The translations under genes were made by a program, and so were the position numbers. From an uncultured Alphaproteobacteria bacterium (GTDB taxonomy: Bacteria; Pseudomonadota; Alphaproteobacteria; RF32; CAG-239): a DNA stretch of 49,075 bases. Numbering within the stretch: position 1 is the first letter of the stretch; each line of letters begins with the position of its first letter. The DNA lies in NCBI GenBank assembly GCA_944393715.1, contig CALYBB010000027.1:1-49075 (forward strand), read 5' to 3'. Positions 3,499 through 40,892 of the stretch are shown piece after piece. The notes under the pieces are model-generated. The model was not told the origin of the DNA, made no database searches, and saw nothing but the letters and a program-made list of their open reading frames with translations.

Positions 3499-5289
3499 TT
3501 AAAAACCGTCATTTTCCTTCAGCAACAGGTCTCTCTCTTTCTTTAGCATCTCATAGCGTTTATAATCATCGCTGCTGAAATCTCCGTTTTCCAAAACTCT
3601 TTTGCTCTCACGGATATCCGTTTCCAACTGACGCAACTGCACCTCAACGAGACGTTCATCCAAATCTTTGCGCATCTTTATAATATCCGGACATTGTTTT
3701 TTCAAGATGTGCACATCAACCAATCGCCGCCACCCTGTCAAATTCGGGCGGGAATCAAGCACCGCGGCAAGTTTTTCCTCATCATCCGGAGCAAAATCTC
3801 CCTGAACAACCTCCACTATTGCGTCATACAATTCCTTCAATTGATTGTCTTTTACCGCAAAATTAAACAATCTTTCCTCATACTCTTCCGCCAACTGCGG
3901 ATAACAAACAAATGCCGAGATTACATATCTTGCCACAAGATCATCCAAATCTGTCCGCGCTCGGTGCACCGACGAAAAAGAACGCGGTGCAAAAACCTTC
4001 CCCTTTCTGGCCGGCCGGCTTGGTTCCACCAGATCGCTGTAGATTTTGCGTTTCATCTCCTGAACATAATAACCGCGCACAGTCTCATCCGCAATTTTAG
4101 CAACCTCCTCTTTTATATCTTTTTCGATTCGGGCCTTCTGTTCCGGTGTATCAATCAATTTTCCTTCCAAGTTTTTACGCCACAACAAGTCTTTAAGCGG
4201 CACCGTTGTCGTCACCACTTTCAAAAATTCTTCCGTCCCTTTGGCCTTCAAAAACTCATCAGGATCCTGCTTATCCGGCAAAAAAGCATACTGCAGCGAA
4301 TACCCTGGCCTCAAAATCGGCAACACTCTATCAACCGAGCGCACGGCCGCCCGAATACCGGCGGCATCACCGTCAAAACAACAAATCGGCTCATTAACCA
4401 CTTTCCAAGCTTCTTGAATTTGGTCTTCGGTCAAAGCTGTCCCAAGCGGCGCCACGGCATAACCTATGCCATACTTATCCATTGCAATAACATCCATATA
4501 GCCTTCGCAGATAATCAACCGCTTGGCATCATAGCCGCATTCGCGGGCATAATTCAGATTATACAAAATCCGCCTTTTATTAAACACCGGCGTTTCCGGC
4601 GAGTTCAAATATTTCGGCTGGCTGCCGTCCATCACCCGTCCGCCGAAAGCGACAACCTTGCCGCGCTTATCCATAATCGGGATCATGACACGGTTGCGAA
4701 AAAAATCATGCGGGCGATTGTTTTCCGGTATGGTCAAAAGCCCCAGCTCCGCCATTTCCTTATCGCTGATACCGTGCGACGAAAGCTGCGCCTTAAGCCC
4801 GTTGTTGTTTGGAGCAAAGCCCAAGCGAAACTTGCTGATGATCTTATCGTCAAACCCGCGTGAATACAAATAATCAAGCCCTTCGCGACCGGCCGGCAGC
4901 CGCAGCATCTTTTCAAAAAAGCGCGCGGCCATCTCCATAATGTCATAGGCTGTGGCACGTTTTTCTGCTTGTTCTTTGCTTTCGGAACTAAGTTTCGGCA
5001 ATTGCATTCCGACCTTATGCGCCAGCTTTTCCACCGCGTCAATAAAGCTCAGGCCGTTAGCCTCCATCTCAAACTTGATGATATCGCCATGCGCACCACA
5101 ACCAAAACAATGATAAAAACCTTTGGCTTCATTAACGGTAAATGACGGCGTCTTCTCATTATGAAACGGACAGCAAGCGGTATATTCACGCCCCTTGCGC
5201 ACAAGCTTAACCTTTGAGCCGACGATATCGACAATAGATATCTTCGCTCGCAACTCATCGCAAAATCGTTGTAAATCCGTCGACGCCAT
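3499..5289 (-). CDS. dnaG: DNA primase DnaG
   Basis: Synthesises RNA primers for chromosome replication at the fork with DnaB helicase. An N-terminal CHC2 zinc-binding domain shows CPFH followed by CFGC (first Cys about residue 40). The central catalytic core has the Toprim signature ICEGYMDVIAM and, further on, CFDGDAAG. The basic motif with PKYLNSPETPVFNK precedes it. About 596 aa is normal for the family. The ATG at 5289 is used; a TTG directly before it is less likely. AGGA of its ribosome-binding site overlaps the yqeY stop codon 8 nt upstream, which suggests translational coupling. Confidence 0.97.
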   Translation of the reverse strand: MASTDLQRFCDELRAKISIVDIVGSKVKLVRKGREYTACCPFHNEKTPSFTVNEAKGFYHCFGCGAHGDIIKFEMEANGLSFIDAVEKLAHKVGMQLPKLSSESKEQAEKRATAYDIMEMAARFFEKMLRLPAGREGLDYLYSRGFDDKIISKFRLGFAPNNNGLKAQLSSHGISDKEMAELGLLTIPENNRPHDFFRNRVMIPIMDKRGKVVAFGGRVMDGSQPKYLNSPETPVFNKRRILYNLNYARECGYDAKRLIICEGYMDVIAMDKYGIGYAVAPLGTALTEDQIQEAWKVVNEPICCFDGDAAGIRAAVRSVDRVLPILRPGYSLQYAFLPDKQDPDEFLKAKGTEEFLKVVTTTVPLKDLLWRKNLEGKLIDTPEQKARIEKDIKEEVAKIADETVRGYYVQEMKRKIYSDLVEPSRPARKGKVFAPRSFSSVHRARTDLDDLVARYVISAFVCYPQLAEEYEERLFNFAVKDNQLKELYDAIVEVVQGDFAPDDEEKLAAVLDSRPNLTGWRRLVDVHILKKQCPDIIKMRKDLDERLVEVQLRQLETDIRESKRVLENGDFSSDDYKRYEMLKKERDLLLKENDGF

Positions 5290-5297
5290 CAAAAATC

Positions 5298-5756
5298 CTA
5301 ATTACCAGCCAACTGTGCCTTGACCAACGCATTAACCTTGCCGAAATCCATCTGTCCGGCATATTTGGCCTTAAGCGCTCCCATCACTTTGCCCATATCT
5401 TTCATTGATGCCGCTCCGATTTCAGCAATAATTGCCCTAACCGCCGCCTCTGCCTCGGCCTCACTCATCTGCTTAGGCAAAAAACGCTCAATCACCGCAA
5501 TCTCGGCTTTTTCTTTGTCCGCCAATTCCGGACGATGCCCTTCAATAAACATCTTAATCGAATCATTCCGCTGCTTGATCATACCCTGCATCATACTCAA
5601 CAATTCGGCATCCGAAGCTTTTTCCTGTCCTTTACCACGCGCTTCGACGTCTTTTTCTTTCTGTCCGGCAATAATCATGCGAATGGCGCTGGTGGTTACA
5701 ACATCTTTGGCCAGCATGGACTCTTTCAAAGCTTTTTGTAAATCATCTCTCAACAT
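5298..5756 (-). CDS. yqeY: YqeY/GatB-like domain protein
   Basis: Small helical protein of the YqeY family (about 150 aa), related to the C-terminal tRNA-binding domain of GatB and GatE. It is usually thought to act in tRNA-dependent amidation, but the free-standing protein has no firmly proven role. Visible family features are the N-terminal LRDDLQKALKESMLAKD, the middle EIAVIERFLPKQMSEAE and the C-terminal MKDMGKVMGALKAKYAGQ. A strong GGAGGA precedes the ATG. First gene of the operon with dnaG and rpoD, an arrangement common in Alphaproteobacteria. Confidence 0.92.
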   Translation of the reverse strand: MLRDDLQKALKESMLAKDVVTTSAIRMIIAGQKEKDVEARGKGQEKASDAELLSMMQGMIKQRNDSIKMFIEGHRPELADKEKAEIAVIERFLPKQMSEAEAEAAVRAIIAEIGAASMKDMGKVMGALKAKYAGQMDFGKVNALVKAQLAGN

Positions 5757-5856
5757 TTTTCATTCCTCCGATAAAAAAAACTGCACCCAGCATATACGCC
5801 TTATCACAAAAAATCAACCGCCAACAAAAAAATAAAGCCGCATTACAACCAAAAAC

Positions 5857-5885
5857 TTGACATCTCAAATAAAACGACCTAAAAA
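5857..5885 (+). promoter_or_regulatory. Sigma-70-like promoter for the 5931 gene
   Basis: TTGACA (5857-5862), a 17-nt spacer and TAAAAA (5880-5885). It would give a leader of about 40 nt before the ATG at 5931. The -35 is perfect and the -10 moderate. Confidence 0.55.
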
Positions 5886-5930
5886 TAGCCCAGTAAATAT
5901 TTATTATTAATTTTCTAACACTTTATACCT

Positions 5931-6359
5931 ATGGACATTTATAATGTATCGCTGATTATTGCAGTCTGTATCGTTCTGGCGGTTATTATTCTCCGCACTG
6001 TTTATAGACAAAACGCTTTTCAAACACCCCTCATCCAAAATGAGGATATCGTGTTGCCGCGTTGTTTTTCTGCCTCGGCCAAAGGAATCATTCTGATTAA
6101 CGGCAAGGCGCTTGTTTCTTCAAAAAATAAATGCTATATCGGAAATTTGAATCGCGTCTATGCCAACCATAACGGCCACATCTTCGTAGAGCTCATTGAA
6201 AACAACTACGAAATCAGCATGATTGAGTTTGACCAATACGGACAATGCGTCGCCAAACACCAAAACTTTGATGACAAAGGATTCCCCGTCAAAACGCACT
6301 ACACGGATAATAAGGGACGCCTGCATGTAATCATAAGTATCAACAAAGATGACTGTTAG
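5931..6359 (+). CDS. Hypothetical membrane-anchored protein, 142 aa
   Basis: I do not recognise this protein. Residues 6-22 form one hydrophobic N-terminal helix, so it is probably a bitopic inner-membrane protein. The rest is a small hydrophilic domain with repeated short beta-type segments; ILINGKALVSS and QYGQCVAKHQNF are examples. Cys residues fall near 13, 44, 67, 105 and at the C-terminus. The start codon lacks a Shine-Dalgarno and is preceded by an AT-rich leader, as in several other unknown genes in this window. It stands alone, with its own promoter and a strong terminator. Function is unknown. Confidence 0.65.
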   Translation: MDIYNVSLIIAVCIVLAVIILRTVYRQNAFQTPLIQNEDIVLPRCFSASAKGIILINGKALVSSKNKCYIGNLNRVYANHNGHIFVELIENNYEISMIEFDQYGQCVAKHQNFDDKGFPVKTHYTDNKGRLHVIISINKDDC

Positions 6360-15948: not shown

Positions 15949-16725
15949 CTAATAAGCGACGACACAACGAGCATCATAGATTTTAGAGGAGGCTTCACCG
16001 CCTGCTTTTTGACCTCTTCCAAAATCGTAACCACCAAAGGAAACAGGATAGTTTCTGTAAAGAGTAGAAGACCAATGGGGACCATGATCAAGAGACATAC
16101 CGCCAGCTTTGGCAATACCATCGCTAATGAGACGAAGTTCAGCATCATCCAAATTATTAAACTCTCTATCAAATATAGCCCCTAGCTCATCAGTACTTGG
16201 CAAAAACCAACTTCCCTTTGCCAATCCCCCGTCTGTCTTATTATAGCAATATCCCGCCGCATAATCAGATCCGGTGCCAAAAAATGCCACAATCTTTTCG
16301 CTATAGACTTTACCTCCAAGATCACAACCACTAAAAGCATCACACGGTTCCAATCCCGATATATAATCCTCTTTTTGTGTACTTCCGACAATGCCTCCAT
16401 TATAATCCAACGCCAAGGCCAATCGTTTGGAGGTATCAAACACGACGCCAATCGCACTTTTTCCGGAAGGCGTCGAATTATAGCATTTTTTGTCATTATA
16501 CAAAACCGAGCCCACTTGACACTCAGTCTCTCCTGCGGGATTCGTGCAATAAAGCGCGTTTTCGTCAAACGGGCATTTGAGTATTTTCTGTCCCGCACAC
16601 TCTTCAGCTGTCCACCCGTAGCCCAATTCATCACAGCTTGGCAAAGTCTGGCAATTAACCGCCGCATTCACTGCCGAACACGCCCCAAAAACCGCCGCAC
16701 CGACCAAAAATAAATATTTTTTCAT
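15949..16725 (-). CDS. Secreted Cys-rich Lcl/DUF1566-like domain protein (paralog A)
   Basis: A 258-aa exported protein. A signal peptide (1-21) is followed by a Cys-rich module with CQTLPSCDELGYG and LKCPFDENALYC. The C-terminal half resembles the Lcl/DUF1566 fold, with GSWFLPSTDELGAIF, then HWSSTLY and a final ARCVVAY. Such domains occur in surface adhesin-like and fimbrial proteins; binding to a host or cell surface is inference. The gene at 40116-40892 is a clear paralog of exactly the same length. Both lie behind the same promoter and double-palindrome leader. GGGAGG lies 8 nt before the ATG, adjacent to the proximal palindrome but not inside it. Confidence 0.8.
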   Translation of the reverse strand: MKKYLFLVGAAVFGACSAVNAAVNCQTLPSCDELGYGWTAEECAGQKILKCPFDENALYCTNPAGETECQVGSVLYNDKKCYNSTPSGKSAIGVVFDTSKRLALALDYNGGIVGSTQKEDYISGLEPCDAFSGCDLGGKVYSEKIVAFFGTGSDYAAGYCYNKTDGGLAKGSWFLPSTDELGAIFDREFNNLDDAELRLISDGIAKAGGMSLDHGPHWSSTLYRNYPVSFGGYDFGRGQKAGGEASSKIYDARCVVAY

Positions 16726-16742
16726 ATCTCATCCTCCCGCTT

Positions 16743-16772
16743 GTTGCAAAAAAAGGTTCCTTTTTTTGCAAC
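16743..16772 (-). repeat. Palindromic hairpin repeat, copy A2 (proximal)
   Basis: A 30-nt palindrome with arms GTTGCAAAAAAAGG / CCTTTTTTTGCAAC and AA as the central dinucleotide (gene orientation). It ends 17 nt before the ATG of the 16725 gene, next to its Shine-Dalgarno. Its arms are identical to those of the three other copies in the window. Confidence 0.95.
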
Positions 16773-16839
16773 ACTTTTTCAGTAAATTAAAGATCATTTT
16801 TCCCGTTGTTTTGGCTCATTTTTTCTATCATCCTTTCTT

Positions 16840-16869
16840 GTTGCAAAAAAAGGACCCTTTTTTTGCAAC
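16840..16869 (-). repeat. Palindromic hairpin repeat, copy A1 (promoter-proximal)
   Basis: The same 30-nt palindrome with central dinucleotide GT (gene orientation). It begins exactly 10 nt after the -10 box, so it would fold at the extreme 5' end of the transcript. It lies 97 nt from copy A2. No T-run follows, so at this locus it is not a classic terminator. Confidence 0.95.
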
Positions 16870-16879
16870 ACTTTCTATC

Positions 16880-16908
16880 ACCATAGCATGAAATACTTAA
16901 AAAAGCAA
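16880..16908 (-). promoter_or_regulatory. Promoter of Lcl/DUF1566-like paralog A
   Basis: Minus strand TTGCTT (16903-16908), 17-nt spacer, TATGGT (16880-16885). Its layout matches the promoter of paralog B: the same spacer, and the same 10 nt to the first palindrome. That repeated geometry makes it more credible than the boxes alone would. Confidence 0.65.
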
Positions 16909-39935: not shown

Positions 39936-39964
39936 TTGTTTTTTTAACGGTTCCATGTTATAAT
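39936..39964 (+). promoter_or_regulatory. Promoter of Lcl/DUF1566-like paralog B
   Basis: TTGTTT (39936-39941), 17-nt spacer, perfect TATAAT (39959-39964). Transcription should start near 39971, at the very beginning of the first palindrome. The spacer and the 10-nt gap to the palindrome core are identical to those at the promoter of paralog A. Confidence 0.8.
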
Positions 39965-39968
39965 TTAC

Positions 39969-40014
39969 AAAACTGTTGCAAAAAAAGGATCCTTTTTTTG
40001 CAACAGTTTTTTTT
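39969..40014 (+). terminator. Extended palindrome B1, terminator-like, at the transcription start
   Basis: A perfect 42-nt palindrome (39969-40010) containing the shared 30-nt core (39975-40004) with central AT, and followed by four more T after the arm's own TTTT. It has the form of an intrinsic terminator. It would end the TPR gene transcript and also interrupt RNA begun at the 39936 promoter after about 40 nt. Confidence 0.85.
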
Positions 40015-40063
40015 AGTTTTGAAACATTATTTTATCTTTGTTTTTACACATTTTTTTGAAATC

Positions 40064-40107
40064 CCTCCGTGTTGCAAAAAAAGGATCCTTTTTTTGCAAC
40101 ACGGAGG
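40064..40107 (+). repeat. Extended palindrome B2 that includes the Shine-Dalgarno
   Basis: A perfect 44-nt palindrome with the 30-nt shared core (40071-40100, central AT) and flanks CCTCCGT / ACGGAGG. The right flank is the GGAGG ribosome-binding site of the 40116 gene, so in RNA it pairs with CCTCC and would be closed to the ribosome. Confidence 0.95.
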
Positions 40108-40115
40108 ATGCTGCC

Positions 40116-40892
40116 ATGAAAAAATATCTATTATCAACAAGCGTTGCCTTAACATGCCTGACAGTCGGCTCTGCCGCCGCGACCGATCCCGTTTGCCGCT
40201 CGCTGCCTGATTGTGCGGAATATGGTTTTACCATGAACGCCTCAGATTGTGAAGGCAAACCAAGCCTGAAATGCCCCTTTGATTACAGCAAACTTTTTTG
40301 CGTTCCAGATAAAACAGAAACACCTCCCGAGCCAGAACCCGAACCGACCCCAGAACCTGTCGCCGTTCCTTGTAAAATCGGTTCAATTGTCCGTTCCGAC
40401 GGACAATGCTACGACGGCGATCCGGATATAGCGCAAGTCGGTATTGTTTTTGATCCTGACAGACGTAAAGCTATTCCTATCCGAAAGGTGTTGTGGGGAC
40501 TAGTATGGAGCGATCCCGAAATTAACATCCCACAACTCGAACATTGTCCTACCAATTACAAAAGCTGCGGCGCCGACGGCGAAGCCAACACCTCCAAAAT
40601 TGTCTCAACCTTGCGCCCAAACACCGATTATGCCGCAGGTTATTGCGCCAATGCCGGTTATTTTCTGCCTAGCGTCGAAGAACTACAAACCATAGCAGAA
40701 CACATAGATGAAATAAAAAAAAGCGCTTTCTCTTTTGGTTCTGATATGAATTTTAGTCTTAGCTATCTCTACTGGTCGTCCACACAATATGATAATCAGT
40801 ACGTCGTAGCTGTCGATCTGCATGATGGACTTTTAGATTTATTCCAAAAAGACTATGTCTCGATCTACACCATGTGCGCCTACATCTATTAG
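40116..40892 (+). CDS. Secreted Cys-rich Lcl/DUF1566-like domain protein (paralog B)
   Basis: A 258-aa exported protein, the same length as its paralog at 15949-16725. A signal peptide (1-22) leads to the Cys-rich module CRSLPDCAEYGF and LKCPFDYSKLFC. A Pro/Glu-rich linker (PEPEPEPTPEP) absent from paralog A follows. The Lcl/DUF1566-like half contains AGYFLPSVEELQTI, then YWSSTQYDNQYVVAVDL and a final MCAYIY. The start at 40116 has GGAGG 8 nt upstream, inside a palindrome; an upstream frame extension to 40038 would translate the palindrome and is rejected. A surface-binding role is inferred. Confidence 0.8.
   Translation: MKKYLLSTSVALTCLTVGSAAATDPVCRSLPDCAEYGFTMNASDCEGKPSLKCPFDYSKLFCVPDKTETPPEPEPEPTPEPVAVPCKIGSIVRSDGQCYDGDPDIAQVGIVFDPDRRKAIPIRKVLWGLVWSDPEINIPQLEHCPTNYKSCGADGEANTSKIVSTLRPNTDYAAGYCANAGYFLPSVEELQTIAEHIDEIKKSAFSFGSDMNFSLSYLYWSSTQYDNQYVVAVDLHDGLLDLFQKDYVSIYTMCAYIY

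Follow-up and report, generated by a model that had tools for sequence, protein, structure and literature searches.

Palindromes flanking oppositely oriented segments at paralogous loci as likely crossover sites of an Mpi-family invertase at predicted secreted-protein genes of an uncultured gut alphaproteobacterium

In the genome of an uncultured gut alphaproteobacterium, 30-bp palindromes enclose DNA segments whose orientation differs between paralogous loci, and we consider it quite probable that these palindromes are crossover sites at which an Mpi-family invertase flips the segments and so switches genes for predicted secreted proteins on or off. The window analyzed here, a stretch of 49,075 nucleotides, is contig C27 of the home genome G000 (1.40 Mb in 50 contigs, completeness 96.4%). 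An earlier note on this stretch had offered three possible roles for the palindromes. One of them, ends of an invertible segment, is now strongly supported by reversed leaders in two species, matched crossover cores and an Mpi-family invertase. The idea of a 5′ hairpin also holds in a different form, its predicted function being termination or masking of the Shine-Dalgarno (SD) sequence instead of mRNA protection, while a dimer-binding operator is not needed by the explanation that we favor. The two loci of the window, A and B, comprise the following features.

16880..16908, minus strand: locus A promoter, with −35 TTGCTT (16908-16903), 17-nt spacer and −10 TATGGT (16885-16880)
16840..16869, minus strand: promoter-proximal palindrome of locus A (putative recombination site), core AC on the plus strand (GT in gene sense), unmatched to its partner
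16773..16839, minus strand: promoterless leader segment of locus A, 67 nt, inverted relative to the paralogues B, C34, C36 and C46bR, predicted ON
16743..16772, minus strand: gene-proximal palindrome of locus A (putative recombination site), core TT on the plus strand
16733..16738, minus strand: SD sequence of gene A, GGGAGG
15949..16725, minus strand: gene A, ATG at 16725, 258-aa Cys-rich family protein, secretion predicted from an N-terminus that looks signal-like by eye
39936..39964, plus strand: locus B promoter, with −35 TTGTTT (39936-39941), 17-nt spacer and −10 TATAAT (39959-39964)
39975..40004, plus strand: promoter-proximal palindrome of locus B (putative recombination site), core AT
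39969..40010, plus strand: terminator-like hairpin of locus B, the palindrome being lengthened by 6 flanking bp, with TTTTAGTTTT after it in gene sense (a predicted OFF state)
40005..40070, plus strand: promoterless leader segment of locus B, 66 nt, in the predicted OFF orientation
40071..40100, plus strand: gene-proximal palindrome of locus B (putative recombination site), core AT
40064..40107, plus strand: 44-nt inverted repeat of locus B, 21-bp arms around a 2-bp core, with the SD within the 3′ arm, a predicted SD-masking stem
40102-40107, plus strand: SD sequence of gene B
40116..40892, plus strand: gene B, ATG at 40116, 258 aa, predicted secreted, with a weak Lcl_C match under the Pfam cut-off

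The arrangement that the earlier note had described is exact at both loci. At locus A, the promoter with its 17-nt spacer is followed by a 10-nt gap, the 30-bp palindrome, 67 nt, the second palindrome and the SD, and the twin arrangement on the other strand (39936-40107) has the same 17-nt spacer and 10-nt gap, with 66 nt between the palindromes. The 14-nt arms are the same in all four copies of the window, as had been noted, and the central dinucleotide alone differs (TT, AC, AT and AT); the palindrome pattern occurs four times in the window versus not once in 100 dinucleotide shuffles. A consensus sigma-70 scan listed neither the locus A nor the locus B promoter at its threshold, and we base the promoter call on the 10 near-identical copies found at a constant distance from the palindrome. 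The sole match in an Rfam scan of the window was a tRNA.

Whereas the leader had been regarded as duplicated at two loci, the duplication is real and its extent is greater, with 10 loci in the home genome and related sets in two congeners. The palindrome, GTTGCAAAAAAAGG-NN-CCTTTTTTTGCAAC, is present in G000 in 18 exact copies and one with a single mismatch (control, 0), and two 29-base versions raise the total to 21 sites at 10 loci on 7 contigs. Its arms are constant throughout the genome except for the one mismatch and the two deletions, and the central dinucleotide is AT, AA/TT or AC. There are 10 units of promoter plus site, each measuring 53 nt from TTATTG to the A-run. Promoterless leaders of 65-67 nt between two sites are found at seven loci (A, B, C4, C28L, C34, C36 and C46bR), with sites spaced 95-97 bp apart, and promoter-bearing segments of 122-126 nt between two sites at four (C28, C43, C46b and C46c). 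C28 and C46b carry three sites each, serving two divergent genes, and C46a has a single site. The earlier note had proposed that scatter over the genome at gene ends, with no link to promoters or Lcl/DUF1566-like genes, would mark the palindrome as an ordinary dispersed repeat or terminator. When this check was run, all 21 copies proved to lie at the 10 loci with promoters, every one of which also has a gene of the family, and REP-like scatter at unrelated gene ends was not found, G000 having no scattered copies. The exact 30-mer had no match in GTDB genome contigs or in IMG/VR, which is uninformative on the species itself (its own or near records were possibly excluded), and at ≤3 mismatches there was one match across 57 relatives.

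The genes at these sites belong to one family. A search of the home genome with a 13-member alignment returned 17 matches, 13 of them full-length, and 12 of these 13 are the first gene at a site, the 13th being next in tandem; the remaining four matches are partial or more distant, three of which are encoded on C31 and the fourth at the end of a contig. Lcl_C was matched by 3 of the 13 paralogues at E 0.001. The structure model of protein A has a mean pLDDT of 75, and its comparison with the PDB gave no fold match at E 0.001 or better. At C28, the 5′ ends of the two divergent genes (L018:3947-4894 and 5218-6204) are identical at 176 of 180 nt, while the next 180 nt are unrelated (47/180), as if the 5′ ends had been homogenised. 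Long inverted near-identical stretches also lie near the 5′ ends of a divergent pair from another family at G002 L061. Adjoining the C43 inverton is a gene that we name flgI-like, with an upstream sequence, TGGCAC-N5-TTGCA (L021:5440-5550), that resembles a sigma-54 promoter; the C43-side promoter pointing toward this gene meets a terminator-like hairpin before the sigma-54-like sequence.

The statement of the earlier note that the spacers between the palindromes are not alike turned out to be wrong, because the spacer of locus A matches its paralogues once it is reverse-complemented. Leader A compared with leader B scored 14.0 in the inverted sense (0/1000 shuffles, maximum 13.5) and −16.5 in the direct sense, a score reached by 448 of 1000 shuffles. 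Against C34, its closest paralogue, the inverted score was 42.5 (0/1000, maximum 17.5) and the direct score −20.0, and as reverse complement it scored 36.5 against C36 and 26.5 against C46bR (0/1000 shuffles each). Across B, C34, C36 and C46bR, the direct scores of leader A were shuffle-like, from −12.5 to −20.0. Since the spacer at 16773-16839 matches its paralogues as reverse complement alone, it is inverted relative to them. C4 and C28L group with A, weakly: the inverted scores against B, C34, C36 and C46bR were reached by 9, 28, 4 and 0 of 1000 shuffles, respectively, for C4 and by 1, 79, 105 and 2 for C28L, and we regard the orientation of these two leaders as suggestive. The sequences that flank the palindromes are complementary over 5-9 bp at each of the eight sites that belong to B, C34, C36 and C46c, and parts of C43 and C46b have shorter or broken runs. 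These runs are now 0-3 bp at A, C4 and C28L, and flipping the segments in silico regains 5-6 bp at one site each, with 3, 0 and 0 bp at the other; the flank complementarity agrees in part with the leader orientations. A reversed leader is also present in the congener G002, where L102 is inverted relative to L096 (31.5), L100 (31.0) and L101 (44.0), with 0/1000 shuffles each and no direct match. The gene behind this leader is not a member of the family, so L102 may be a decayed locus; its family gene lies on the other side. Both leader orientations are present across the paralogous loci of G000 and across those of G002.

In G002 and in a second congener, G022, we fetched sites at 11 and 7 loci, respectively. 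The promoter pattern (≤2 mismatches) accompanies them at 10 of the 11 and 5 of the 7 loci, and the gene family was detected by tblastn at 9 and 5 and was absent by tblastn at 2 of 11 and 2 of 7. Many of the sites in these two genomes are imperfect palindromes, and the layout is nonetheless unchanged.

With their constant arms and variable centers, the palindromes look like crossover sites of serine recombinases, whose inversion needs 2-bp cores matched in the inverted sense. In G000, the cores of 9 of the 11 neighboring pairs are matched for inversion, compared to a permuted mean of about 3 (P of 2e-5 or 2e-4 according to the type of shuffle; the cores of the two 29-mers were read as TT and AT). 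The same holds for 9 of 10 pairs in G002 (P 0.001) and for both pairs in G022 (P 0.1). Incompatible cores occur at A (TT/AC), at C4 (TT/TT, one site being a 29-mer) and at G002 L099 (TT/TT). For Hin, one base-pair change in the core blocks ligation in the inverted orientation (PMC4817059), and A and C4 may therefore be locked. Inverted sites with compatible cores, as expected of an inverton, are present at B (AT/AT) and not at A. Locus B is predicted to be OFF and switchable, while locus A is predicted to be ON, perhaps locked by its mismatched core; ongoing switching is likewise a prediction.

The candidate enzyme is a 197-aa protein, P0003, encoded beside groEL on contig C41. Its match to NF009949, the model named “master DNA invertase Mpi family”, reaches 295.6 bits (cut-off 272) over model positions 1-195 of 203, and the protein also matches PF00239 and PF02796 above their cut-offs. 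An N-terminal RVST motif, whose serine we take to be the catalytic one, is combined with a C-terminal helix-turn-helix, as aligned to gamma-delta resolvase. Searching G000 with PF00239 gave two proteins, this one and a protein on C20 (L025:1318-1905), which is Mpi-like, falls below the PF00239 cut-off, lacks the RVS motif and has a helix-turn-helix; it may be a regulator or a paralogue that has degenerated. G000 has a single intact small serine recombinase, which belongs to the Mpi family. A search with PF00589 gave two proteins only, with open frames of 320 and 322 aa, the size of XerC/D.

Mpi-family matches of any strength were found in 37 of 58 genomes, including the home genome, and thus the family itself is common in this group; 17 of 58 genomes have matches above the cut-off. 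Identity to P0003 above 64% is limited among the 57 relatives to G002 (80%), G022 (78%) and a 20-residue fragment in G030. When sites were counted by a 24-base pattern with ≤3 mismatches (larger strand count), there were 20 in G000, 18 in G002 and 10 in G022, and 12 further genomes had one or two matches, with a backward control reaching 2 in some genomes. Among the 57 relatives, many diverged sites are therefore seen only in G002 and G022, the two with close Mpi orthologues. Because the contig that carries the invertase gene, C41, has no sites, the link between enzyme and sites rests on this co-occurrence.

Around other Mpi genes, several further repeats were observed. In G006, one of the genomes with one or two matches, a site-like match with two mismatches to the 24-base pattern (G006:C3:853-876) lies 172 bp from an Mpi copy (G006:C3:103-681), and weaker forms of the link between enzyme and site may thus exist; the identity of the G006 Mpi to P0003 is 62%. 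An inverted-repeat scan of 14 stretches of relatives (13 around invertases, one around a site) returned locus-specific repeats, for example in G024, G006 and G017, and the G002 inverton, and otherwise nothing clear in those stretches; beside 12 Mpi relatives, no half-site pairs like those of G000 were found. Short inverted repeats with gaps of 101-194 bp lie near other congener Mpi copies (L065:6396-6544, L067:5098-5325 and L072:8022-8156) and are candidate local invertons with different sites. Beside another Mpi relative, L119:3760-5181 contains inverted copies of a 150-bp sequence that enclose 24-bp inverted repeats, a shufflon-like arrangement. Mpi relatives with 63-69% identity also occur in MAGs labelled Ruminimicrobiellum, Endomicrobiaceae, Gastranaerophilales and Melainabacteria (L114, L120, L117 and L119, respectively) and are as close to P0003 as, or closer than, the copies of most congeners, a distribution that likely reflects horizontal spread or mis-binned contigs.

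We then compared the two orientations of each leader as RNA. By a simple terminator rule, a sense terminator is predicted in the OFF orientation of 12 of the 13 leaders (7 from G000, 4 from G002 and 2 from G022) and in the ON orientation of one. The exceptions are C4, whose predicted ON state has a weak match, and L102, where neither state has one. Counted after a core-to-core flip, the promoter-side stem is longer in the OFF orientation in 11 of 13 leaders, C4 being one pair shorter and L102 tied. In the window, a terminator scan returned one terminator at locus B, in the sense direction, and two at locus A, both antisense. Promoters that point away from the gene run into a matching hairpin in four of four cases, with weak tails at L103 and C46c, and no hairpin was found at promoters facing the gene through a single site (L097 and L099) or at C46a.

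In folds, the SD is less accessible in the OFF form of all seven G000 leaders, with a small difference at C4 (0.50 versus 0.59). The complementarity on the gene side, which involves the SD flank, is locus-specific (48 versus a permuted mean of 34.6, P 0.0004), while that on the promoter side is not (P 0.09). In the ON-form folds, the two palindromes tend to pair with each other, and this pairing could itself have effects. SD masking is absent from the leaders of G002 and G022 that were read, where the SD lies beyond the stem, and masking thus looks as if it had been added in the home species. We accordingly rejected SD masking as a general mechanism, as it was found in the leaders of neither congener, and made termination the core of the model.

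In the mechanism that we propose, the invertase encoded on C41 would act on the sites and flip each segment between them. Where the segment bears the promoter, transcription would be directed toward one gene, toward its divergent neighbor or away into a terminator-like hairpin. A promoterless leader would instead lie between a fixed promoter and its gene, where, in the OFF orientation, one of its ends would lengthen the promoter-proximal palindrome to a hairpin with a tail of U’s, a predicted intrinsic terminator, while the other end of the OFF leader would, in the home species, pair with the SD flank at the second palindrome and so mask the SD. In the ON orientation, terminator and SD mask would both be mostly lost. 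The recombination site is thereby predicted to double as the stem of an RNA switch.

Other explanations can be proposed for parts of these observations. The palindromes could be operators for a dimeric regulator, with paired sites looping the DNA and coordinating the family and with the reversed spacers being old, unselected rearrangements. This would suit their perfect symmetry, the fixed 10-nt distance from the −10 element and the 95-97-bp spacing at the leaders. However, it leaves unexplained the antisymmetric matching of the central dinucleotides, the reversed leaders in two species, the terminators whose presence tracks orientation and the co-occurrence with a close Mpi orthologue, and we consider it very improbable; a repressor might nevertheless share these palindromes. 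Alternatively, the inversions could be by-products of replication, arising when the polymerase switches template from one palindromic hairpin to the other, which would flip the short spacers without a dedicated enzyme, while the palindromes would be retained as terminators. At such short distances, perfect inverted repeats readily provoke template switching, and the hairpins are strong in folds. Yet template switching does not predict matched central dinucleotides, many of the G002 and G022 sites are imperfect palindromes in the same layout, and the site changes with the species alongside the invertase, and we consider such an origin very improbable.

It is also conceivable that inversion is real and driven by another recombinase, be it XerC/D or an enzyme encoded in the small part of the genome that is missing from the assembly, given that the invertase is unlinked to the sites, that completeness is 96.4% and that two tyrosine recombinases are present. 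Against this speaks the variable 2-bp center between identical arms, which fits small serine recombinases; in addition, both tyrosine recombinases look by size and number like housekeeping XerC/D, and the many-copy site families follow the close Mpi orthologue. We therefore hold a different recombinase to be very doubtful. Least credible of all, with hardly any chance of being right, is the view that the palindrome is simply a dispersed repeat, of REP type or from a miniature element, that spread by duplication together with its neighboring promoter and gene. While the near-identity of the copies within the species and the single match to the 30-mer at ≤3 mismatches in 57 relatives would agree with such a repeat, all copies found occupy fixed positions at the promoters of one gene family, their gene-side flanks are locus-specific and complementary, and the genome-wide distribution, with no scattered copies, already contradicts it.

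Taking inversion by the Mpi-family enzyme as the preferred reading, it is tempting to speculate further, at a level where we would put the chances of being right and wrong about equal. One master invertase would flip the 65-67-bp leaders, with the same 30-bp palindrome serving as a terminator at one end and an SD mask at the other, giving an OFF state with two locks. Flanking promoter invertons on the same sites would turn the three-site loci into four-state switches that choose between divergent surface proteins, and site arms and enzyme would have changed together between congeners. The preferred reading itself predicts genome-wide combinatorial phase variation in an uncultured gut alphaproteobacterium; in one reads-based survey, none of four Alphaproteobacteria samples was positive for such inversions (PMC5903667). 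It would bring promoters and terminators that invert together on a common set of sites, with a likely enzyme, and it suggests that the ON or OFF state can be read from assembled genomes through leader orientation and core match.

Several known switches can be compared with this system. In Clostridium difficile cwpV, the promoter is outside the invertible segment, which separates it from the gene, and the OFF RNA has a proposed intrinsic terminator (PMC2784873). The leaders described here share with cwpV the outside promoter, an OFF terminator at the promoter-side repeat junction (by sequence prediction, 12 of 13 leaders OFF versus 1 of 13 ON), a surface-protein target and a recombinase that does not adjoin the switch (PMC2784873). 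They differ in that cwpV is inverted by the tyrosine recombinase RecV, a member of the XerC/XerD family, with repeats then seen only at cwpV in the genome, whereas here a serine invertase is predicted and many loci are present, and in that the cwpV segment measures 195 bp between imperfect 21-bp repeats, as opposed to 65-67 bp between perfect palindromes that form the hairpin stem (PMC2784873). Unlike in cwpV, the SD is also predicted to be masked in the home species. As the likely recombinase class differs, with the 2-bp core logic and the Mpi co-occurrence pointing to a serine enzyme and a tyrosine one, such as the two XerC/D-sized proteins of G000, being less likely, we suggest that the leaders work like cwpV and do not claim membership. 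The C. difficile flg switch is similar in that inversion of a leader acts after transcription initiation, but its OFF state is Rho-dependent (PMC7446863), while a hairpin with a U-tract is predicted here. Among the best matches in the open-licence literature, where cwpV and flg appear, we found no SD-masking inverton, which is weak evidence of absence.

With Salmonella Hin/hix, the system shares a serine invertase and core nucleotides that must match (PMC4817059, PMC3798978), to be compared with the mismatched core of locus A; the hin gene, however, lies inside its own invertible segment (PMC2784873), with control by a Fis-bound enhancer, and the enzyme here is remote. As in Bacteroides fragilis, where seven of the invertible regions of Mpi are polysaccharide promoters, one serine invertase would serve many invertible regions genome-wide (PMC4747536, PMC5903667), although the system described here is in an alphaproteobacterium, acts on genes for Cys-rich proteins of predicted secretion and has many promoterless segments. 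At a B. fragilis EPS operon, under a tyrosine recombinase, transcription is reported to be inversely related to how many inverted repeats separate the promoter from the gene (PMC4747536), which fits a regulatory role of such repeats. Taken together, the system combines two known kinds, B. fragilis Mpi and C. difficile cwpV, and what seems new, as far as we have seen, is a palindrome that is both site and hairpin, two types of inverton on common sites, and the host group.
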